DNA of 64,000 bases from Microvenator marinus (lineage in GTDB: Bacteria > Myxococcota_A > Bradymonadia > Bradymonadales > Bradymonadaceae), in the NCBI RefSeq assembly GCF_007993755.1, contig NZ_CP042467.1, positions 2,628,001 through 2,692,000 on the forward strand, in the 5' to 3' direction. Position 1 is the stretch's first letter, and each line of letters begins with the position of its first letter. The notes below the pieces were generated by a model that made no database searches, had not been told where the DNA came from, and was given only the letters and a program-made list of their open reading frames with translations. Positions 46,613-62,170 of this stretch are shown piece by piece. The position numbers and the translations under genes are program-made.

Positions 46613-49600
46613 TTATGGGGCTGGTGGTGTGATCGCTGCGGTGATTGTGAATTCACCAGCGTTGTCATCATCAAAGCCCCACACGTCCACGATGACCGTC
46701 ATTGTTCCGCTTGGAGGAATGGTGGTCGTGAAGGTTTCGACACCGGACGAGAAGTTACTATCCTCATCAATCAAACATGAGTTGATGAAGTCGGTGCACG
46801 TCTCGACTGCCCAGAGAACCGCATCAAAATCGGCATCAACCGTGATAGTGACGGAGTCTCCAGGTGTTCCCGTGACCGAGAATGCAGCATCTCGACCTGC
46901 GGTCGAATTTGCGGAACATTGCCCACCAGTCGCCAACTGATGCTGGTCAGAATAGTCCTCAATGTTGCCCGTGTAAGGCGTACCACTTGAGATATCTATT
47001 GCAGTCGCACAAGTATCATTTGGTGCTGGGCTACAGGCGCCCATGTCGCAACCAAAAGTACAGGTGCTGGTTTGGGTGAACCCAAGACCACTACAGGTGA
47101 CGAGGTCACCTTGGTCGCAGAATGGTGCGTCACCAGGTGTACAATCTGGAGTTCCAAGTAGGATCTCTAGGTCGTAGGTGCCGGATGGTGTGGATGTGAA
47201 GAAATCCGCGTAGACGTAGACAATGCCATCTGCAGGGAAGACGTAGGAGATTTCTTCGGTGCCCGAGGTTGCGTCGCTACCGTCCTCGCACGTGTTTACA
47301 TCACCACAGGTCTCGAGGACGTAGAGCGAAGCATCACTGGCAGCCGTCATCGTGACTTGCAGGACATCTCCTGCAAGACCTTGGACAGCGTACACATGCT
47401 CAGGTCCGTTTGAAGAGAAGCCTGTGCATAGCGAACTGTTGAGGCTCAGGTCGTTGCTCGTAGCCACAGGTACAGCCGAGAAGGTTGTCGACTGGGTGAC
47501 AATGAATGGCTCAGCGCAGTTTTCGCCGTTTGGATCCACACATGTGAGGTTCTGATTACATTGACCACTGGAACAGCTGTAGACACCTGGTAGTCCGAAG
47601 CTGTCACAGAGAAGGATATCTCCGTTGGTGTTGTCGCAGGAATCAAGCGTGTTCGGTGCACAACTTGGAGCTTGAATCTGGATGTCCACGCTGAAATCAC
47701 TGAACGTGGTGCTCGACACGAAGTCGGTCACGATAGTTACGAAGCCTGCATCTGGCATCACCAATTGCAATCTCTCACTGAGTCCGGTGGATGTATTGGA
47801 GCCAGCCAAGCACGTGCTGGAATCGTTGCACGCTTCAAGCGCGTAGATGACCGGATTGCCAGTAGTCGCAACCATGTCGACGGTGACCACCTCACCTGGT
47901 TGTCCAGTCACTCGGAAACGAGCGTCTGGACCGGATGCGCCGGTACCACTGCAGTTGGTGGAGTTCGTGTTGGTCAATGTGCTGGCAACCATATTGAACG
48001 AGGCCGATCCAGAAACGTTGATCATTTCGTGACACACGTCGCCCGATGGACTGTCACAGCCGGTCGGTGAGCATGACCCACTCGAGCAAGTTTGAGCGAT
48101 TTGGAATCCCGCGTCGCAGTAGTCTACATCACCTGCGTTACAGCCCAGAATTTGTCCGTCTACGCAGCCCGTGAATGCTTGAGTGTCAATGGTGAGCGTG
48201 TAGGTGCCTGTTCCAGTGTTGTTTGTAGAACTGAACACATCGGCAACAATGTATGCATAGCCTTCTGCTGGGATGACAAAAGTAATGTCCTCAGGGTTTC
48301 CGCTATCTGAGTCTTCAAGACACGTATTGCCGGTTTGAGCACAGTCAGTCACAGCGTAGAGAACTGCGTCGAACGTTGCGTTGAGTTCAGCAATGATTCG
48401 ATCACCTGGGTTGCCTGTGACTCGATAGATAGCGTCGCGGCCGAAGGTGCTACGAGCCACGCATGCAGTACTCGAACCGCTGACTAGGCGCACTTGATTC
48501 GTGAAGTCTGTGATGGTTCCGGTGAACGTGCCACCGGTTCCTGCTTCGATGGCTTCTGGGCAGAAGTCACCATTTGGAAGGTCGCAGAGGCTTCCATTAC
48601 ATGCGCCCGAGGAGCATGTATATTCCTCAATAACACCAAACCCGTCACAGTATTGGACGGTACCCGCGCTACAACCCAGTTGGGCGCCAGGCGTGCAACT
48701 TGGGGCTACTACTTCGATCTCAAGAGTGAAATCAGAATTCGTGACAGACGACGCGAAGTCAGCGACAACGAAGAATGGATCGGTAGAATCGAGCACGAAA
48801 CGAAGTCGCTCAGCACCCGTGGTAGTCGCATTGCTCGAGCTTCCGCAGGATGCAAGGTCGTTACAATCGTCAAGGGTGTAGACCAGGGCGTTTCCTGCTC
48901 CTGTCGGCGTCATCGTGACAGTGACAACTTCACCCACGTTCCCTTGGACCTGATACACAGCGTCAGGACCACTTGCGGTTGTACCGGCGCATGTTGAGGA
49001 AGCGTTGAAGCCATTGGTCAGGTTTGCAACCGTTTGAGTGAAGACTCCGCCGCCTTGTGGAACTGGAATTGCCTCGTAGCACACGTTTCCATTTGGCTGC
49101 TCACAGGCATCGCCCGCACCATTGCACTGACCGGAACTGCAGAGTGCGCGGTCAATAAATGAACCGGTCGAGTCACACGATTCAATAGCACCATTATTGC
49201 AGCCTACGAACTCGCCAGGAGTACAGGAGACCTGTGGGTCGACATAGGTTGTCAACGTGAACTGGCCAGCATCATCATTTGGAGTTGAACCGAAGACGTC
49301 AACAATGACGAAGAGTTGACCACTGGACGGGAAGACTCCGCTGAGGGTACCGCTGCTTCCAGGAATATCTCGGCCAGCAACGCAGCTCGTTCCAACCGCC
49401 GCACAGTCCTCAACAAAGTACATGACAGAATCGAACGCTGCACTCAATTCAGCACGCAATCGATCCCCTGGGTTTCCTTGAATGACAAAGGTCGCATCGC
49501 GGCCACCCGATGTAACCGAGGAGCAAGTCCCAGAAGTGAGTTGATATTGGTTGCTGAAATCTTCGATCCGACCTGTGACTGAACCGCCGTTTTGAAGTTG

Positions 49601-52600
49601 GACGGCGCCGGCACAGACGTCATTTGGGCCAAAGTTACACACGGCGTTTTGGCATCCATAGGTGCAGGGGGTTGTTACGCTAAGCCCTATATCACTACAT
49701 GAAACCACGGCTTGACCCGCGCCATCACACGCATCTGGGGCACCTACCGTACAATCGGGCTGACCGATGAGTATTTCCAGATCATAGGTGCCTGTTGGCG
49801 AAGATGAGAAGTAGTCTGCGTAAAGGAAAATTGAGCCGTCGGTCGTGAAGGTGTAGTCCACCACTTCTGGATTTCCGGAGTCATCGCCATCGAGACAAGA
49901 CTCTCCGTCGCCACAGCTTTCGAGGATGTAAATCGCAGCATCAGACCCATTAGGTGTCATCGATGCGCGGAAGACATCGCCAGCTTGTCCACGAACCTCG
50001 TAAATGCGGTCGCCACCCGGCGTATTGAACCCGGTACAAGACGTGGCACCCGGACGATTGAGTGAATTGATGGTGGCCACAGGGACACCGGTGAAGGTCG
50101 TGGATTGTTCAACTACGATGGCCTCTGGACATACTTCGCCGTTAGGGTTCTCACATACGGCGCCGTTGCAGATACCGCTGTTGCATGTGTAGGTTTCTTC
50201 CAAGCCAAGCGAATCGCAGGATGTGATCACACCAGCAGCACACGAGATGAAAGTATCAGGGGTACACTCTGGAGCTTGGACACTGATGTCCACGGTGAAA
50301 TCGCTGTCGGTGAAGGAAGACGAGAAGTCCGCCACAACGATGACAGGGTCCGTCGAAGTAAGGGCAAATTGAAGTGTTTCGGCGCCAGTGGTCGTACTGT
50401 TGACGCCTGCAAGACAGGTAGCGGAATCGCTGCATGAATCCAGCGCGTAAACGATTGCGTTTCCGCTGCCGCTTGGGGTCATGGTCACGGTGACAATCTC
50501 GCCAACGGCTCCTGCGATTTCAAGACGCGCATCTACGCCTGGAGCTGTCGAACCACTGCAATTTGTAGAATTGGTATTTGTAAGGTCATCAACGAGGAAG
50601 CTGAAGGTTCCTCCGCCGGTTGGGACTGGAATAGCTTCGAAGCACGTATCTCCGTTGGGAGTTGCGCACGCATCGCCGTCACAGGCGAGTGATGAACAGT
50701 CGTAGAACTCTTGGATGCCGAGTGAGTTACAGACCGGAATCTGGCCAGATGCACAGGTGCCAACTTCGTTAGGCGTACAGGTTGGCGAATCGATCTGGAT
50801 ATCTAGGTCGAATGTTCCCGAAGCCGAAGCCGAGTAGGCGTCTGCCCCTATAAAGACAGGGGACCCATCTGAAACGAAAGAAACCGTTTCGGGATTACCA
50901 CCGTCGCTTCCTTCGATACACGAGGAGATATTCCCGCACTCCGTCAACACATAGAGCGACGCGTCAAACGTTGCGTCCATGGTCACGGTGACAATATCGC
51001 CAGCAGCGCTCTGGATCTGATAGAACGCCTCTGCTCCAAGGCTCTGTCCGAAACCGGTACATGCTGTACCTGTCACCGAGAAGGTGTTGGTGAGGTCCGA
51101 AAGAGGGATGTCAGTGAACACCGTGGATTCGGTCACAACGAACGCTTCCTGACATGTGTCGCCGTTTGGTACGCAAGTTCCGGTGGCTTGGTCACAGCCG
51201 AGCGAGCAGTTGACCTCTTCGAGGGCAGTTCCGAGCTGGTTACACACCAATGCTTTGTTCTGGTCAGCCGGGTCACATGCGTTATCGGCTGGCGTACAAA
51301 TCGGAACTTGGGACTCGTAGGTCAACGTGTAGGAGCCACCGGAGGCTGCGTTGGCGGCGTGAACCACCACATAGTAACGGCCTGGAAGAAGGACTTGAGC
51401 GAAGGTTTCTTCAACTCCAACGGCACCGGCGTTGAGACACTCGGTCTCAGAGCCATCAATTTCACATGCAGTGCGCAAGCTCAATGTAAGGTCTGCGTTC
51501 TCGTCGGGTGTGAGCACCATCGAAACAGCGCGTGCCTCAGGGAGATCGAGCAAGTAGATATCTTCAGCCGTTTGTGCGTCCGAGACACATGATGGAGCCA
51601 ATGGAATGGCAGCACCGCTGATGGTGGTACCGGTCTGACTTGCAGCGATTGCCGGTGCGTTTGCACAGGCTTGAACAACAGCGCCGTCAAGGAGGTCAGC
51701 GTAGAGACCGTAGCGAACGCCTGGCGTTGCAAGGCCTTCACCGGAAACCATGATGGTGTAGACACCCTGATTGATGGCGGAAATAGCGTAAGTCAGCTGG
51801 GCCACGCCATTGGTTGACGTTACCTCACCGACGGACGTTCCGCTTGGGTTTAGAATTTCGATCTTTACTTCGCCCAGACCGATATCTTCTGAGAACACGC
51901 CAGCGCGAACGAAGAGGTCGCCGGTAAAGTCGTTATCGTCGAGGGTATCGAAGGTATAGACATCAACGTCAGCATCACAAAGTGTTGCGGCGATTTCGCC
52001 ATTGGTCTTGTCGGCCACGAAATAGTCTGTGGCTTCAGCGTCCGTGTTGTTTGGTTCAAACGCATCAGCTTCACATGCAGGAGCGTCCGTACACTCACGT
52101 TCGCGGCAAACGCGATCACCGGTGCAGTCGAGCGCCGATGAACATCCTGCTTCATTCTCTGAGCAGGTCACGGCTTGAGCGCCGTCGTAATCACAGTTTT
52201 GGTTACCCGTGCACTCATCACACGCAACTTCGACGGTTTCGCAAACGCCGGAGTTACAGTAGTTGCCGTCGAGGCAATCATCTTGAGTGGAGCATGAATC
52301 TGGGTTGACACACTCACCGGTGAGGCCGTCGCACACACCGCGCGGGCAATCGACCATGTCCACATCACATTGATTGACGGTACATGAACCTTCCACGCAG
52401 AAGTTGCCTTCGAGGCACTCCATATCTGAGGAGCATGTTGGGGAATCTACACACGCTCTTGCGGAGAGCGAGCAAACACCGCGATTACACTCAAGGTCTT
52501 GGCAGTAGGTGGCTTCGTCTACACACTCTTGGCCGTAGCACTCGAAGCCGTCCAAGCACTCCGTGGCCTGGTTTTCGATAGTACACACGGAGGCGTTAGC

Positions 52601-52837
52601 GCACTCACCCGTTTCGATGTCGCAGACTCCGCGGTCGCACTCAACATCTGCACAGAGGTCAACTTCGCAGTCGTCTCCTACACATGGAACACACTCACCT
52701 GTGGCGGCGTCACACACGTCGGTGCCATCACACGTGACATCTTCACAGAGATCGGGCTGGCCTTTTGGCGGGTCGTCGTCGGAACAAGCTGCCGCAAACA
52801 ACAGTGATAAAACAAGTAAACTTCGCAAAATCCGCAT
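46613..52837 (-). CDS. 2074-residue repeat lipoprotein (Cys-rich stalk, PPC-like domains, nine tandem repeats)
   Basis: The largest gene here. ATG 52837 has AGGAG 6 bases upstream; MRILRSLLVLSLLFAAAC is a lipoprotein signal. Residues about 25-250 are Cys-rich beads (CDVMxCPRGVC-like; RGVCDIETGEC, RGVCSLSARAC). Residues about 255-520 hold two jelly-roll domains like bacterial pre-peptidase C-terminal domains (SAINQGVYTIMVSG, LLPGRYYVVVHAAN). Residues about 557-2074 hold nine units of about 168 residues. Each unit starts PNGDxCxEAIxV, has TCSG/TACTGF, PGDxVTVTMTxxxDAxLYxLxxC, IVADxFSSSxTGxF, and closes with a C-rich link CTPGxxxxCxxGxxxxCDSxGxxxxxxCSSGxCNG. No enzyme motif and no sorting tail are seen. 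It is probably a long surface fibre. Confidence 0.85.
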   Translation of the reverse strand: MRILRSLLVLSLLFAAACSDDDPPKGQPDLCEDVTCDGTDVCDAATGECVPCVGDDCEVDLCADVECDRGVCDIETGECANASVCTIENQATECLDGFECYGQECVDEATYCQDLECNRGVCSLSARACVDSPTCSSDMECLEGNFCVEGSCTVNQCDVDMVDCPRGVCDGLTGECVNPDSCSTQDDCLDGNYCNSGVCETVEVACDECTGNQNCDYDGAQAVTCSENEAGCSSALDCTGDRVCRERECTDAPACEADAFEPNNTDAEATDYFVADKTNGEIAATLCDADVDVYTFDTLDDNDFTGDLFVRAGVFSEDIGLGEVKIEILNPSGTSVGEVTSTNGVAQLTYAISAINQGVYTIMVSGEGLATPGVRYGLYADLLDGAVVQACANAPAIAASQTGTTISGAAIPLAPSCVSDAQTAEDIYLLDLPEARAVSMVLTPDENADLTLSLRTACEIDGSETECLNAGAVGVEETFAQVLLPGRYYVVVHAANAASGGSYTLTYESQVPICTPADNACDPADQNKALVCNQLGTALEEVNCSLGCDQATGTCVPNGDTCQEAFVVTESTVFTDIPLSDLTNTFSVTGTACTGFGQSLGAEAFYQIQSAAGDIVTVTMDATFDASLYVLTECGNISSCIEGSDGGNPETVSFVSDGSPVFIGADAYSASASGTFDLDIQIDSPTCTPNEVGTCASGQIPVCNSLGIQEFYDCSSLACDGDACATPNGDTCFEAIPVPTGGGTFSFLVDDLTNTNSTNCSGSTAPGVDARLEIAGAVGEIVTVTMTPSGSGNAIVYALDSCSDSATCLAGVNSTTTGAETLQFALTSTDPVIVVADFSSSFTDSDFTVDISVQAPECTPDTFISCAAGVITSCDSLGLEETYTCNSGICNGAVCENPNGEVCPEAIVVEQSTTFTGVPVATINSLNRPGATSCTGFNTPGGDRIYEVRGQAGDVFRASMTPNGSDAAIYILESCGDGESCLDGDDSGNPEVVDYTFTTDGSIFLYADYFSSSPTGTYDLEILIGQPDCTVGAPDACDGAGQAVVSCSDIGLSVTTPCTYGCQNAVCNFGPNDVCAGAVQLQNGGSVTGRIEDFSNQYQLTSGTCSSVTSGGRDATFVIQGNPGDRLRAELSAAFDSVMYFVEDCAAVGTSCVAGRDIPGSSGTLSGVFPSSGQLFVIVDVFGSTPNDDAGQFTLTTYVDPQVSCTPGEFVGCNNGAIESCDSTGSFIDRALCSSGQCNGAGDACEQPNGNVCYEAIPVPQGGGVFTQTVANLTNGFNASSTCAGTTASGPDAVYQVQGNVGEVVTVTMTPTGAGNALVYTLDDCNDLASCGSSSNATTTGAERLRFVLDSTDPFFVVADFASSVTNSDFTLEIEVVAPSCTPGAQLGCSAGTVQYCDGFGVIEEYTCSSGACNGSLCDLPNGDFCPEAIEAGTGGTFTGTITDFTNQVRLVSGSSTACVARSTFGRDAIYRVTGNPGDRIIAELNATFDAVLYAVTDCAQTGNTCLEDSDSGNPEDITFVIPAEGYAYIVADVFSSTNNTGTGTYTLTIDTQAFTGCVDGQILGCNAGDVDYCDAGFQIAQTCSSGSCSPTGCDSPSGDVCHEMINVSGSASFNMVASTLTNTNSTNCSGTGASGPDARFRVTGQPGEVVTVDMVATTGNPVIYALEACNDSSTCLAGSNTSTGLSERLQLVMPDAGFVTIVTDFVSSTTFSDFSVDIQIQAPSCAPNTLDSCDNTNGDILLCDSFGLPGVYSCSSGQCNQNLTCVDPNGENCAEPFIVTQSTTFSAVPVATSNDLSLNSSLCTGFSSNGPEHVYAVQGLAGDVLQVTMTAASDASLYVLETCGDVNTCEDGSDATSGTEEISYVFPADGIVYVYADFFTSTPSGTYDLEILLGTPDCTPGDAPFCDQGDLVTCSGLGFTQTSTCTFGCDMGACSPAPNDTCATAIDISSGTPYTGNIEDYSDQHQLATGGQCSANSTAGRDAAFSVTGTPGDSVTITVDADFDAVLWAVETCTDFINSCLIDEDSNFSSGVETFTTTIPPSGTMTVIVDVWGFDDDNAGEFTITAAITPPAP

Positions 52838-55046: not shown

Positions 55047-56330
55047 ATGCATTATGTGATCGTCGGAAATGGCGTAGCGGGAGTCGAAGCGGCACTCAAG
55101 ATTCGTGAGCGATATGCGCCTGAAGAGGCGAAAATCACGGTAATCAGCGAGGAGACCGACTATTTCTTCTCGCGCACGGCGTTGATGTACGCCTACATGG
55201 ATCTGATGACTCGGAAGGATTTAGAGCCTTTTGAGCGCAAGGTTTTCGACAATCTGAAGATCGAGTTGGTTCGTGGGCGCGCGGTGGATCTCGATGCCGA
55301 CGCGCACACCTTGAAGCTCGAAGACGGCAAGACGCTGAACTACACGAAGCTCCTTTTGGCGGTTGGAGCCAAGCCCAATATCTTTGGTTGGGATGGCATC
55401 AAGGACGCAAAGGATGGCGTGGTTCACTTTGTGTCCATGCAGGATTTGGATGCGTGTGAGCGCCTGACGCCCAGCACCAAAAGCGCGGTCGTTGTGGGTG
55501 GAGGTTTGATTGGTATCGAGCTTGTGGAGTGCCTGAAGCACCACGGCGTGAACGTGACGTTTTTGATCCGAGAGCCCTTTTACTGGCCGATGGCGCTTAG
55601 CTCTGAAGAAGGCGCCATGGTCAACGGCCATATGCAGGCCCACGGTGTGGATGTTCGGCTCGAGGAGGAGCTCTCCAAAGTGAAAGTGGACGCCAACGGG
55701 CGAGTTTCGGGGGTCGAGACGAACAAGGGCAACGCTATCGAATGCCAAATGCTTGGGATTTGTGTGGGCGTACACGCGAATAAAGAATGGCTGAACGAGT
55801 GCAAGTCTACGCCGGAGCTCGGGCGCGGAATCAAGGTCAATCGCGCGTTTGAGACATCGCTGCCGGATGTGTATGCGGCCGGCGATTGTGCTGAGATTGT
55901 TCGTGAAGACGGAAGTACCTTCCAGGAGACCATCTGGTACTCCGCCAAACTCCACGGCCAGCTCGCCGCGCGTTCTATGATGGGTGATGCGGTGGATTAC
56001 GAGAAACCGCTCTTCTACAATTCATCCAAGTTCTTCCATATCGAGTACACGACCGTGGGCGAGGTGGTGAATCTGGCAAAGGGCATTCGTTCTCTGTACA
56101 GGCGGCACCCGAAGAAAGAGATTTCGCAGCGAATTGTGTACAACGAAGCAAACCAGGTCATCGGCTTTAATATGCTCGGGTCGCGCTGGAATCACAACGT
56201 CTTGGAACGCTGGATTCACGAGAGACGCAGCATCGAGTGGGTGCGTAAGAATCTGGCTCAGGCACAGTTTGATGTAGAATTTGGGCGCGCAAAGCTCGAA
56301 GAGTTTGATGAAAAGGAGATCGTTCAATGA
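55047..56330 (+). CDS. FAD/NAD(P)-dependent oxidoreductase
   Basis: A 427-residue pyridine-nucleotide-disulfide-oxidoreductase-fold flavoprotein. The FAD dinucleotide motif GNGVAGVEAA is at residues 7-16, the NAD(P) motif AVVVGGGLIGIELVECLK at about 149-166, and the second FAD motif DVYAAGDCAEI at about 275. ISEETDYFFSRTALMYAYMD resembles the start of rubredoxin/nitrite-reductase-type reductases (NirB/AssT-like), and there is no CxxxxC redox disulfide. The C-terminal about 90 residues form a separate domain (HIEYTTVGEVV, RRHPKKEISQRIVYNE). The stop overlaps the next gene (ATGA), an iron-sulfur membrane protein. Together they look like an electron-transfer module from NAD(P)H or an unknown donor to the membrane. 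Confidence 0.85.
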   Translation: MHYVIVGNGVAGVEAALKIRERYAPEEAKITVISEETDYFFSRTALMYAYMDLMTRKDLEPFERKVFDNLKIELVRGRAVDLDADAHTLKLEDGKTLNYTKLLLAVGAKPNIFGWDGIKDAKDGVVHFVSMQDLDACERLTPSTKSAVVVGGGLIGIELVECLKHHGVNVTFLIREPFYWPMALSSEEGAMVNGHMQAHGVDVRLEEELSKVKVDANGRVSGVETNKGNAIECQMLGICVGVHANKEWLNECKSTPELGRGIKVNRAFETSLPDVYAAGDCAEIVREDGSTFQETIWYSAKLHGQLAARSMMGDAVDYEKPLFYNSSKFFHIEYTTVGEVVNLAKGIRSLYRRHPKKEISQRIVYNEANQVIGFNMLGSRWNHNVLERWIHERRSIEWVRKNLAQAQFDVEFGRAKLEEFDEKEIVQ

Positions 56331-57445
56331 GACGTTCAGGCAAAATCGGCTGGTTTCTGCACGATGTGAAAAATCGCGGGATAACGGCCTGGCTCATCTC
56401 CGGCGTGCTCCTTCTCTTCTACGTGCTTTTGTATTTCACTGAAGAGCTCCAACCGCTGGTCAAGCTGCTGGGGTTTGACAAGAAGCCGTTCGAGGGCAAG
56501 TGGACGCTCTACGGCCTCCTCTACACATTCGCGATCGTGACCGGCGGCGGATGGATGCTCTACAAATACCGGCACAATAAGTACCAAATTGTACGCACGA
56601 TTGTGGTGATGTTTGTGCAGACTACGCTGGCGTTTTCGGTCCCGATTTGGCTCAATTTCATCGACCAGCCGGCCTATTATTTCTCGTATCTATGGCCCTT
56701 GAAGATTGAGTATTTCTACCCTTCGAGCATTCTCTGGATGCCGATTCCGTTCATCGTCTACTCCATCTTGGGCTCATTGATTCTGGTGCCCGTGCTTGGG
56801 ATTTTCTTCGGCAAACGTTGGTATTGCTCGTGGGTGTGTGGATGCGGAGGGCTTGCAAACACGTTCGGAGAACCGTGGAGGCATCTGACGAGCAAGTCGG
56901 AGGCGTCGTGGAAGTTTGAGAAGTATTCCATTCACATCACGCTGGTCTTCAGCATTCTCACCACAGCCCTTGTGGTGATTTCGTACGGTGTTGGCGCGAA
57001 ATACCCTGAGTTTGTGGAGACGACGAAGACCGTGCAGAAGACCTATGGGCTTTTGGTATCGAGCATTTTGAGCGGTGTGGTGGGCGTGGGTCTCTACCCG
57101 ATTGGTGGCACGCGAATCTGGTGTCGAAATTTCTGTCCGATGGCCGCATTCCTGGGGCTCATTCAAAAGTTCGGGCGATTTAGGATCACGGTGAAGGAGA
57201 ATATGTGCATCTCGTGCGGGATGTGCACCAAATACTGTGAGATGGGCATTGATGTGCGTGCCTACGCGCAGCGGAATCAGTCCTTTGTGCGCGCTTCATG
57301 TGTAGGTTGTGGGCTCTGCGCCGAGGTATGTCCGCGCGGCGTGTTGCGCCTTGAAAACTCCTCCGAGCCACATCCCCAGGAGCTCACCATGAACGCGCTC
57401 ATTCACGAGTCGTGGAAACAAAAACCTCACCGTAAGGCGCTCTAG
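56327..57445 (+). CDS. NosR/NapH-like membrane iron-sulfur protein
   Basis: A 372-residue polytopic membrane protein with about five to six helices (residues about 20-40, 55-80, 90-112, 140-165, 205-230, 235-255). The cytoplasmic loop KRWYCSWVCGCGGLANTFGEPWRHL holds CxxxCxC, like the cysteine motif of NosR/NapH/CcoG-type proteins, and RIWCRNFCPMAAFLG is a second CxxxCP. The C-terminus has two [4Fe-4S] ferredoxin motifs: CISCGMCTKYCEMG and CVGCGLCAEVCPRG. It is translationally coupled by ATGA to the flavoprotein. Likely role: moving electrons between the flavoprotein and a membrane or periplasmic partner. No nos, nap or cco genes are nearby, so the pathway is open. Confidence 0.87.
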   Translation: MRRSGKIGWFLHDVKNRGITAWLISGVLLLFYVLLYFTEELQPLVKLLGFDKKPFEGKWTLYGLLYTFAIVTGGGWMLYKYRHNKYQIVRTIVVMFVQTTLAFSVPIWLNFIDQPAYYFSYLWPLKIEYFYPSSILWMPIPFIVYSILGSLILVPVLGIFFGKRWYCSWVCGCGGLANTFGEPWRHLTSKSEASWKFEKYSIHITLVFSILTTALVVISYGVGAKYPEFVETTKTVQKTYGLLVSSILSGVVGVGLYPIGGTRIWCRNFCPMAAFLGLIQKFGRFRITVKENMCISCGMCTKYCEMGIDVRAYAQRNQSFVRASCVGCGLCAEVCPRGVLRLENSSEPHPQELTMNALIHESWKQKPHRKAL

Positions 57446-57531: not shown

Positions 57532-58695
57532 ATGGCGAGCATCATCGAGAGAATACAAGAGGTCGCAAGCCAAGAGGGTGGCGACGACGAATTACTGGCA
57601 ACGGCCGCCCCAACTCATCACCCAGAACTCTGGGAAGACGCGCTTGACGCCTATGGCACGTGGGATGCGGCATTGATTGCCGCGCTCTGCGACCTGGTGC
57701 AGAAGAAGGCGCGAACATCGGCGGCGAAGGACCGCGAGGAGGGCGCGATTCAGCGGCTCAAGACCGCAGCCGCCCGTGAGCCTGTCTACGTTGTGAGTGA
57801 CGACGGGACATTGTTTTGGATAGACGGCGAGGAGCTCGAGGCAACGGACGCACCGGAGTTTTTGCCTCCTCCTGAGGACGCTGGCCCGATGCGGTCTTTC
57901 TCGCATATCGGCACGTCGGATGGCGTGTTCCTCTTCTCAAATCTCGGCCGCTTCTTTGGCGTGGACCCAAGGCTTGTGCCTCAGTGGATGGGCGAGTCGC
58001 CGGTTCGTGATATGGGCCAAATTTTGCCGCTACAGGGCGGAGAAAATATCCGGTTTGTCCTGCCCAGAAAGGCGATGTACGAGGGTCGCGTCATCCATAT
58101 CACTCGCGATGCCAAGGGAAAGGCGTCTGAGGTTTCTGAGATTGGAAGAACGCTCGATAGGACTGGGAAGGAAGCATTTCTGCTCAACGACGACGATGTG
58201 CCTGTGGCTGTGCTTGCCGGCCCCACAAAGAACGGCGTGTTTTGTGCCTCGGCCATGGGTCAGGGGATTCATTTTGATGCCGACGATATGCGCTCAATGG
58301 GGCGAAAGGCCGTGGGCGTCAACGTCATGAAGTTGGACGGTGATGATGACTCCGTGGTCTCGGCGTTCCTCACGAATGAAGTCGAACAAGTTGCGGTCAT
58401 CACGAAGTTTGGCTGGTCCAAGAGGCTCTGGTTCGATGAGTTCCGCCAACAAGGACGCGGTGGTGGCGGCATGCAGGTCTGCAAATTGGACCCGGGTGAT
58501 ACCGTGGTTGCCGTAGTGCCCTGTGTGAACTCCGAAGACCTTGTGGTTTCGACGAGCCACGGACGTGTGTGGAGATTTGCGACCACCGAGCTCGAGATTA
58601 TGGGCCGTCCGGCGCGCGGAAATCGGATCTTTGAGATGGAAGAAGGCGAGTTTATCATTGGCCTTGCTCCCCTGCCGTGTGGATCGAACGAATGA
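57532..58695 (+). CDS. stand-alone GyrA/ParC C-terminal beta-propeller-like protein
   Basis: A 387-residue protein lacking any topoisomerase catalytic domain. After an N-terminal helical region (1-85) the rest resembles the DNA-wrapping C-terminal domain of GyrA, with blades such as VAVLAGPTKNGVFCASAMGQGIHFDADDMRSMGRKAVGV and VAVITKFGWSKRLWFDEFRQQGRGGGGM shown here in parts. The latter, at about residues 295-312, looks like a GyrA box (QRRGGKG-type) in the form QQGRGGGG. Family members of this kind bind or bend DNA when attached to gyrase; the role as a separate protein is unknown. CACGAGGACAAC gives a weak ribosome site. The TGA overlaps the LuxE-like gene start (ATGA). Confidence 0.72.
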   Translation: MASIIERIQEVASQEGGDDELLATAAPTHHPELWEDALDAYGTWDAALIAALCDLVQKKARTSAAKDREEGAIQRLKTAAAREPVYVVSDDGTLFWIDGEELEATDAPEFLPPPEDAGPMRSFSHIGTSDGVFLFSNLGRFFGVDPRLVPQWMGESPVRDMGQILPLQGGENIRFVLPRKAMYEGRVIHITRDAKGKASEVSEIGRTLDRTGKEAFLLNDDDVPVAVLAGPTKNGVFCASAMGQGIHFDADDMRSMGRKAVGVNVMKLDGDDDSVVSAFLTNEVEQVAVITKFGWSKRLWFDEFRQQGRGGGGMQVCKLDPGDTVVAVVPCVNSEDLVVSTSHGRVWRFATTELEIMGRPARGNRIFEMEEGEFIIGLAPLPCGSNE

Positions 58696-59768
58696 ACGCG
58701 CTCCGAGCCGAGCTCATCGAAGCTATCAATGACCCAAATACAGATTGGGACCGTGATTTCGACGCCTGGGCGACCCGAATTTTTGCGCACCAGTTCGAGC
58801 ATAATGCGCCCTATAGAAATCTAGCTGAAGGGCGTGGAATCTCGAGCGTCAGTGGATGGCGCGAGGTGCCGGCTGTGCCTACCGACGCGTTTAAGTACGT
58901 GGAGTTGAGCACGGCACCTGACGCGGTCACGCATACGTTTTTGACGAGCGGCACCACATTGGATGCGCGCGGCAAACACCACTTTTTGAATCTGGACGTG
59001 TACCGCGCGGCCATCGAGGGCCCGTTTCGCAACTACTGCCTCCCCAAGGGCCGAATGCCCATCCTGGTGCTCGCCGCGGCGCCGGGCGAAATGCCCGAGA
59101 GTTCGTTGAGTTTTATGTGCGGCGAGCTGCTCAAGACGTGTGGCGACCCGCGGTACAGCGGTTTTTTCCTCGCCCGAGAAGAGAACGGCGAGTTCGAGTT
59201 TGATTATGACGGGGTTGTGGACGCTTTGGACTTTTTGGAAAAATCCAAGGTGCCGGTCTTCATCCTCGGGACGGCGTTTGCGTACGTGGATTTTCTGGAC
59301 ACGGTTGGCGACCTGAGATGGAAGCTTGCGCCTGGCTCTCGAGTGCTTGAAACGGGAGGCTTAAAGGGCCGGACCCGCGAGGTATCTCGGGCTGAGCTTT
59401 ATGCGTTGTTTGGCAGCCGATTGGGGATCGCTCCGAGCCACGCGCTCAGTGAGTACAGCATGACCGAGCTCTCGAGTCAGGCCTATACAGACGCCATGGT
59501 GCGTGGCGTAGGTCATGAAGAAGCCGTGTTCCGAACGCCAGGTTGGGCCAGGGTTGAGATTGTGGACCCTGTGTCTCTGGAGGTGCTTGACACACCGGAT
59601 GCCCGCGGCCTTATTCGTTGGTACGACCTTGCGAACTTAGACAGCGTGATGGCCGTACAGACCTCCGACATTGGTCAGAGGCGAGCCGGCGGTTTTGTGT
59701 TGGAAGGGCGTGCCCCTGAGGCCGATCTGCGGGGCTGCAGCCTTGTGATTGAGGAAATCGTGGGCTGA
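58692..59768 (+). CDS. LuxE-like acyl-protein synthetase
   Basis: A 358-residue member of the ANL adenylating superfamily related to LuxE, which activates fatty acids as acyl-AMP and transfers them to protein. ATG 58692 is used because it overlaps the preceding stop as ATGA; an upstream GTG is possible. The adenylate loop is HTFLTSGTTLDARGKHHF. LSEYSMTELSSQAY is the A5-like motif with the Glu that contacts adenine, and GLIRWYDLANLDSVMAVQTSDIG contains the Asp that binds ribose. LuxCD partners are absent, so this is not a lux operon. In other bacteria LuxE-domain proteins sit in lipid or surface-polymer pathways. It ends 4 bases before convergent lipoprotein genes. Confidence 0.85.
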   Translation: MNALRAELIEAINDPNTDWDRDFDAWATRIFAHQFEHNAPYRNLAEGRGISSVSGWREVPAVPTDAFKYVELSTAPDAVTHTFLTSGTTLDARGKHHFLNLDVYRAAIEGPFRNYCLPKGRMPILVLAAAPGEMPESSLSFMCGELLKTCGDPRYSGFFLAREENGEFEFDYDGVVDALDFLEKSKVPVFILGTAFAYVDFLDTVGDLRWKLAPGSRVLETGGLKGRTREVSRAELYALFGSRLGIAPSHALSEYSMTELSSQAYTDAMVRGVGHEEAVFRTPGWARVEIVDPVSLEVLDTPDARGLIRWYDLANLDSVMAVQTSDIGQRRAGGFVLEGRAPEADLRGCSLVIEEIVG

Positions 59769-61030: not shown

Positions 61031-61849
61031 TCAAATAGAACGTGTTGCGGGCAGCCTCTTGAGCAAGGTGCGGGAAACATCATCAAGAGCTTCTCGCTGA
61101 GCACCTTGTTCGAGCAGGTTGCTTTTTAGCGAATCTATGATTTCTGGGGCCATTGAACACATTCGGTCGAGCTCATTGAAGACGATTTTTGGCGAAACGT
61201 CGATGTGCTTGGCCATCGTGGACCAGTCGTCTCGCTTCAAGTTGTCTGGTGATCGATTGCGGCCAATGGGCATGGCAAGTGTTCGGTCAACGCCCCTGTA
61301 ATTTCGTGTACACACGAGGTCGTAAAACGGAGCCAGATTACACCCCCGGAAGTCACGCATCATTGAGATGTTTTTGGCGTGGGCGTCGGAGTTACCCGCC
61401 AATACATTGAAAATGGTCAATCTAACGAGTGATTGGATGTCCACCACTGGCTTCGAGGAATGTTCTCGAAGAACTCTTGAAACATTTGCCAATGTCACGT
61501 CGTACTTCTTTGAAGGGGTCAGACCTAAAATCTGGCAGAAGTCTTCTTGGTGTATTCGCTCAACACCCTCATCTCCAACCTCGCGATCGAATCGCTCGAC
61601 GACGAGAAACGGGCGCCCGAGCCGGAAATCAAGCTCCACACTCGCTACCGGGAGTGATAGTGCCGCGGCGAGCTTCATCACAAAGTATTCGTTGACACTG
61701 AGGTGCTGAAACCGAGGGGAATCGAATTTTAGGATGTGGGTGCTGGCTTCATCACTCGACGGCCAAAAATAGTCGTCATCAGCCTTCACGACCGTGGTCT
61801 TGTATTGGGCGCCAGCCAGTGAAAGTCGCGGAGCCCACCACAGACCCAC
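61031..61849 (-). CDS. hipA: HipA-like kinase, N-terminal domain missing (probable deletion derivative)
   Basis: The 272-residue frame encodes the kinase core of a HipA-type toxin: the Gly-rich loop LSLAGAQYKTTVV at residues 10-22, STHILKFDS, PFLVVERFDRE, HQEDFCQILG, the catalytic segment FNVLAGNSDAHAKNIS, and APFYDLVCTR with the metal-binding Asp. Full-length HipA has about 110-140 more residues before the Gly-rich loop; here there are only nine. The natural start, an ATG at 61865 overlapping the hipB stop as ATGA, reads MNVLFRGSVVG, like a normal HipA N-terminus, but then continues in the wrong frame. The GTG at 61849 has no ribosome site. Probably an inactivated or altered toxin. No separate HipS-like gene is present. 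Confidence 0.75.
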   Translation of the reverse strand: MGLWWAPRLSLAGAQYKTTVVKADDDYFWPSSDEASTHILKFDSPRFQHLSVNEYFVMKLAAALSLPVASVELDFRLGRPFLVVERFDREVGDEGVERIHQEDFCQILGLTPSKKYDVTLANVSRVLREHSSKPVVDIQSLVRLTIFNVLAGNSDAHAKNISMMRDFRGCNLAPFYDLVCTRNYRGVDRTLAMPIGRNRSPDNLKRDDWSTMAKHIDVSPKIVFNELDRMCSMAPEIIDSLKSNLLEQGAQREALDDVSRTLLKRLPATRSI

Positions 61850-61861
61850 GAAAGAGCACGT

Positions 61862-62101
61862 TCATAGCGTTGGGTCCCTTGGTTGGACGAAGACATCAAT
61901 CCCAACGCTGTGGAGGAGAAGAAGGACTTTGGCAACTTCAGCACTTTCTTTCCCTCGCTCAACTTCTGAGACGAATCGGGTGCCGAGCGCACAAAGTCCA
62001 GCTAGCTCGGCCTGCGTGAGGCCCAACTTCTTTCGCGCTTTGCGAATGGCCAGCCCCACATCAGTCATATCCAACACCCGTATTTGCGGCTTTCTCTCCA
62101 T
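61862..62101 (-). CDS. hipB: HipB-type XRE antitoxin/repressor
   Basis: A 79-residue DNA-binding protein from ATG 62101; a start 11 codons later (68 residues) is possible. The XRE domain is DVGLAIRKARKKLGLTQAEL, then RFVSEVERGKESAEVAKVLLLLHSVGIDVFV. This RFVxEvErGKxsAexxkVLxxLxxlGI pattern is the couple_hipB type. A TTG 12 codons upstream is unlikely because it would put the downstream operator inside the gene. Operator-like repeats flank the promoter at 62106-62170. Its TGA overlaps the original hipA ATG. It should repress its own operon and, in an intact system, neutralise HipA. Confidence 0.85.
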   Translation of the reverse strand: MERKPQIRVLDMTDVGLAIRKARKKLGLTQAELAGLCALGTRFVSEVERGKESAEVAKVLLLLHSVGIDVFVQPRDPTL

Positions 62102-62105
62102 GCCA

Positions 62106-62170
62106 ATTACCGTACGGGATTTTTTTGAGAAACTCAATGAATTTCGAGCATTTTATTCCCGAACGGTAAT
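62106..62170. promoter_or_regulatory. paired operators of the hipBA promoter
   Basis: ATTACCGTACGGGATT (62106-62121) and ATTCCCGAACGGTAAT (62155-62170) are inverted copies of each other, matching at 14 of 16 positions, with centres 49 bases apart. The AT-rich stretch between them would hold the promoter. Each half is itself partly palindromic (CCGTACGG). The arrangement fits cooperative binding of a HipB-like dimer on both sides of the promoter. Confidence 0.65.

Follow-up and report, generated by a model that had tools for sequence, protein, structure and literature searches.

In the DNA-wrapping domain of GyrA, single residues have been described for StGyrA, where R716, R766 and R817 hold DNA in binding and wrapping and R712 is a supporting residue (PMC7210945). 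The same type of domain can also occur as a separate protein, since Gac of Borrelia burgdorferi is the GyrA C-terminal domain (CTD), whose synthesis begins at a promoter and a start codon that lie within gyrA, and it represses ospC (PMC10127594). Gac turned up in the literature that we searched, in which no paper on a separate gene for a free GyrA-type CTD was found. The second family that concerns us here, LuxE, catalyzes an ATP-dependent activation and transfers the acyl group to its own C-terminal cysteine and from there to LuxC for reduction.

We examined a locus of Microvenator marinus in which genes of these two kinds overlap. The window, i.e., the whole stretch of DNA analyzed, is 64,000 nucleotides in length. 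The original prediction described a 387-residue propeller with GyrA-CTD-like blades and a QQGRGGGG box, lacking the gyrase core and overlapping by ATGA a LuxE-domain gene, and suggested a coupling in which the synthetase might modify the propeller, or else a non-DNA role for the propeller. The features of the locus are as follows.

57532..58695, + strand: free-standing propeller protein of GyrA-CTD type, 387 aa, coordinates including the stop (PF03989, AlphaFold2 model, PDB matches)
57535..57720, + strand: N-terminal helical segment, residues 2-63, outside the GyrA homology (DSSP on the model)
58450..58470, + strand: QGRGGGG, residues 307-313, in the loop equivalent to GyrA blade 5 (alignment with GyrA; R309 aligned to StGyrA R766)
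58692..58695, + strand: ATGA overlap of the propeller stop and LuxE start (LuxE ATG at 58692, propeller TGA at 58693-58695)
58692..59768, + strand: LuxE-type acyl-protein synthetase, 358 aa, stop within the coordinates (PF04443, orthologs, PDB 7xc6_E match)
59736..59738, + strand: Cys349 codon, putative acyl-carrying residue within RGCSL (invariance, alignment to GCSL of 7xc6_E)

Identity, predicted fold and arginine equivalents of the propeller

The propeller reading frame matched Pfam PF03989 (DNA_gyraseA_C) with three repeats (E 9.9e-28, 95.8 bits; cut-off 27), and this family was matched by 16/16 propeller orthologs. In the NCBIfam GyrA models, residues 123-378 matched nothing but the CTD part (E 4e-38; profile positions 540-795 of 798; 130.9 bits, cut-off 902); the gyrase breakage-reunion core with the catalytic tyrosine was absent from the 387-aa protein in this comparison, confirming a propeller of GyrA-CTD-like blades without gyrase core. 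The GyrA of the same genome is encoded in a separate 880-aa frame ~2 Mb from the propeller gene, and a further frame elsewhere in the genome (784 aa, one PF03989 repeat) is probably ParC. An AlphaFold2 model built with 16 orthologs as input reached a pLDDT of 88.4, and DSSP placed helices at residues 2-63 followed by strands to residue 381. The best PDB matches of this model were GyrA CTDs, with 5ztj first (Foldseek E 5.9e-24, probability 1.00, TM 0.85 by target length). The propeller thus does not belong to an unrelated beta-propeller family, an outcome that would have counted against the original prediction, and the model predicts a beta-pinwheel fold closest to the solved GyrA CTDs. The N-terminus bears a weak, unproven sequence resemblance to HNH_repeat (PF18780): the score in this genome was 9.8 bits against a cut-off of 26, which is not significant, and matches were obtained in 2/16 orthologs (best E 0.1). 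An AlkZ-like match (E 0.019) was under the cut-off and was set aside. Scanning for promoters and terminators yielded nothing above chance.

The stand-alone propellers were aligned with GyrA. The predicted glycine-rich motif is present, although it lies in the blade-5 loop and is not the GyrA box. In GyrA that box, Q(R/K)RGG(R/K)G, sits in blade 1, and 16/16 propellers have it deleted or substituted. The equivalents of StGyrA R712, R766 and R817 are arginine in 16/16 propellers and that of R716 in 11/16, while at the R667 equivalent arginine is found in 0/16 by strict column, the next column being arginine in most. The arginines of blades 4-6 are also conserved among GyrA blades, making a structural reason for their conservation possible. 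The propeller part of the protein in this genome has a pI of 4.8 and a net charge of −15, and across the orthologs, which are mostly acidic, the pI extends from this value to 8.0. Three GyrA CTDs used for comparison had a pI of 6.6-9.4 and are thus approximately neutral or basic. The acidic charge of this propeller speaks against strong DNA wrapping.

The LuxE-type enzyme and its usual neighbourhood

The start codon of the LuxE-type gene overlaps the propeller stop, as the original prediction had stated. The protein itself scored 24.1 bits (E 2e-5) against Pfam LuxE PF04443, for which the cut-off is 24.9; the assignment is nevertheless safe because its orthologs in 14 genomes score above this cut-off and because a profile comparison matched it over its full length to 7xc6_E, a LuxE of solved structure (E 3.3e-31). 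Cys349, which we take to be the acyl-carrying cysteine from the role of this residue in the LuxE family, is invariant in 18/18 orthologs and aligned with the GCSL of 7xc6_E.

The LuxE-type gene was present in 39 of 58 sampled genomes of the class, comprising all 18 genomes with the propeller and 21 without it. It usually lies next to LuxC, the gene for the acyl-CoA reductase, which was within ~1 kb in about 17 of the 39 (positions compared by eye), and in relatives it also adjoins ABC-transporter genes. In this genome (G000), LuxC (L087:6212-7258, at 2874 kb) is not adjacent to LuxE, and has beside it an ABC2_membrane gene that shares 60-66% identity with genes next to or near LuxE in L067, L071 and L078. 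Since LuxC here still adjoins the ABC-transporter gene found beside LuxE in relatives, LuxE has apparently left the LuxC locus and ended up behind the propeller gene, which is the simplest history; its direction is inferred. In relatives (L071:5531-11749, L067:522-5499), LuxC and LuxE are found close to genes for an ABC-transporter ATPase, an ABC2_membrane protein and a beta-helix protein, a layout reminiscent of NosDFY sets. The LuxC locus of this genome (L087:2247-8010) holds an FHA-ABC fusion (990 aa) and an amidohydrolase.

Distribution and linkage of the two genes

To delimit the propeller family, a 379-genome sample of the phylum was surveyed, including the 58 genomes of this class. Eighteen genomes carry a stand-alone ortholog of full length (family f1, 13; f2, 3; f4, 2), with intact reading frames and an end-to-end identity of 29-56%. 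Among the matches listed, none in the ~320 other genomes of the sample belonged to the family; the matches were ranked by E-value with a clear gap between 1.7e-92 and 1.7e-51, and the others listed were partial, starting at profile position 127 or beyond, mostly in long frames of GyrA size. Plasmid matches were partial only and mostly annotated as gyrA, and H5, which bears the name of a gyrase propeller domain protein, is a 94-codon fragment. The search of genome contigs gave a single locus (L029), whose contig is, judging by its length, G011:C309. No neighbour of the propeller gene was conserved throughout the loci. In a few genera (g3 and g13) the adjoining gene is of kinase type (cluster 1; Pkinase domain in L056).

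Both genes were present in 18/58 genomes. They touch in three genomes, each of a different genus (G000, G004 and G001), with an ATGA overlap or a 2-bp spacing, showing that the pair extends beyond this genome, a point on which the original prediction had depended. In a fourth genome (G012) the genes are 1.5 kb apart with an opposite-strand RCC1-repeat gene (L055:7422-8774) between them, whereas in two single-contig genomes they are separated by 2.84 Mb (G010) and 1.36 Mb (G007), and in the remaining genomes with both genes they lie on different contigs. The linked pair spans three genera at 43-61% protein identity, while other nearby neighbours are not shared. In a comparison of flanks only, the window and L050 had just these two genes in common near the pair; a second shared pair of L050 matches the window at 22-25 kb. 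If an overlapping pair is retained from genus to genus, co-expression may be the reason, or simply the difficulty of pulling such genes apart. The trees are compatible with a single clade for the four linked genomes without demonstrating one (propeller tree support 67/58; LuxE tree p-AU 0.34).

Several other genes were seen in the window. Directly upstream of the propeller gene (55047-57445), an FAD oxidoreductase gene overlaps, in ATGA fashion, a gene for a NapH-like 4Fe-4S membrane protein, and this pair is not shared with L050 or L054. Further upstream, a 2074-aa open reading frame with repeated Cys-rich and C-terminal-type repeats (46613-52837) probably encodes a secreted, lipoprotein-like surface protein. 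At 61031-62137, a HipA-like frame adjoins a small helix-turn-helix-like frame, by eye possibly a toxin-antitoxin pair.

Interpretation and comparison with known systems

On balance, we favour the view, with reasonable though far from complete confidence, that two unrelated housekeeping-type genes came to lie side by side within one part of the family, and that the propeller constitutes a separate family whose likeliest role is in binding or bending DNA. Because the genes are neighbours in a few genera only, a functional pairing is unlikely. The opposite proposal, that the LuxE-type enzyme acylates the propeller or that both act in one pathway, could draw on the touching genes of three genera, on their persistence while nearby neighbours changed and on a LuxE match in every propeller genome. 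However, most genomes containing both genes have them unlinked, at megabase distances in the two single-contig ones, LuxE has a much wider distribution than the propeller and usually stands beside LuxC, and the enzyme retains an acyl cysteine of its own; the coupling that had been predicted is therefore unsupported, and we consider it improbable. Arguing against unrelated neighbours are the LuxE match in every propeller genome and the persistence of the pair amid changed surroundings, which could indicate selection for co-expression. From the ATGA overlap itself one would expect the two genes to be translationally coupled and expressed together, but not to belong to one pathway.

As regards the propeller alone, it could instead serve as a protein-binding scaffold or as a modulator of gyrase or topoisomerase IV with no direct role on DNA. 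Such a function would suit the lack of the GyrA box in 16/16 propellers and the acidity of most orthologs, and it has a parallel in the ParC propeller, which binds MukB in the solved structure 4mn4, one of the listed PDB matches; the invariant arginine equivalents of blades 4-6 weigh against it, though they may be structural, and we judge this role rather unlikely. That the gene is a degenerating gyrA remnant might be suspected from the joint absence of the gyrase core and the GyrA box, but this is refuted by intact, strongly conserved frames across 18 genomes and three families and deserves hardly any credence.

Under the preferred reading of unrelated neighbours, the propeller family would descend from a GyrA-type CTD as a six-bladed pinwheel in its own gene family, having lost the blade-1 GyrA box, kept the blade 4-6 arginines that contact DNA in gyrase and carrying a short helical N-terminus. 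It would most likely bind or bend DNA while having no topoisomerase activity, in the role of an accessory chromosome protein or a gene-regulating one. A further possibility, to which we give somewhat less than even odds, is that the box-less propeller family with its helical N-terminus serves in this class of bacteria as a DNA-binding protein that shapes the chromosome or regulates genes and that evolved independently of Borrelia Gac. The LuxE-type enzyme, by analogy with its family, would most likely activate a fatty acid with ATP and load it onto its own C-terminal cysteine, from which the acyl group would pass to the LuxC encoded elsewhere in this genome and be reduced to the aldehyde.

The pairing with LuxE matters little, beyond illustrating that overlapping genes can hint at a link that relatives do not support; what has been little studied at this locus is the propeller as a family apart. 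Should it prove to bind DNA, the propeller would provide a second case, after Borrelia Gac, of a gyrase wrapping domain as an independent protein, and as one that has a gene to itself and lacks the GyrA box, it could reveal what that box adds. Compared to the known systems, the LuxE-type protein shares with LuxE (7xc6_E) and LuxC the full-length profile match, the C-terminal GCSL cysteine and LuxC as the usual neighbour in relatives, and differs in its position away from LuxC and in a Pfam score just under the cut-off. With the GyrA CTD (PF03989; 5ztj, 1zi0, 1suu), the propeller has in common the fold, repeat family, blade order and blade 4-6 arginine equivalents, but it lacks the breakage-reunion core and the blade-1 GyrA box, is mostly acidic and carries extra N-terminal helices. 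Like Gac, it is a free GyrA-type CTD without gyrase core and, by this analogy, would most likely bind or bend DNA as Gac does; in contrast to Gac, which arises from an internal start in gyrA, it has its own gene ~2 Mb from gyrA, is divergent from the GyrA of its genome, and combines a helical N-terminus with the absence of a GyrA box.
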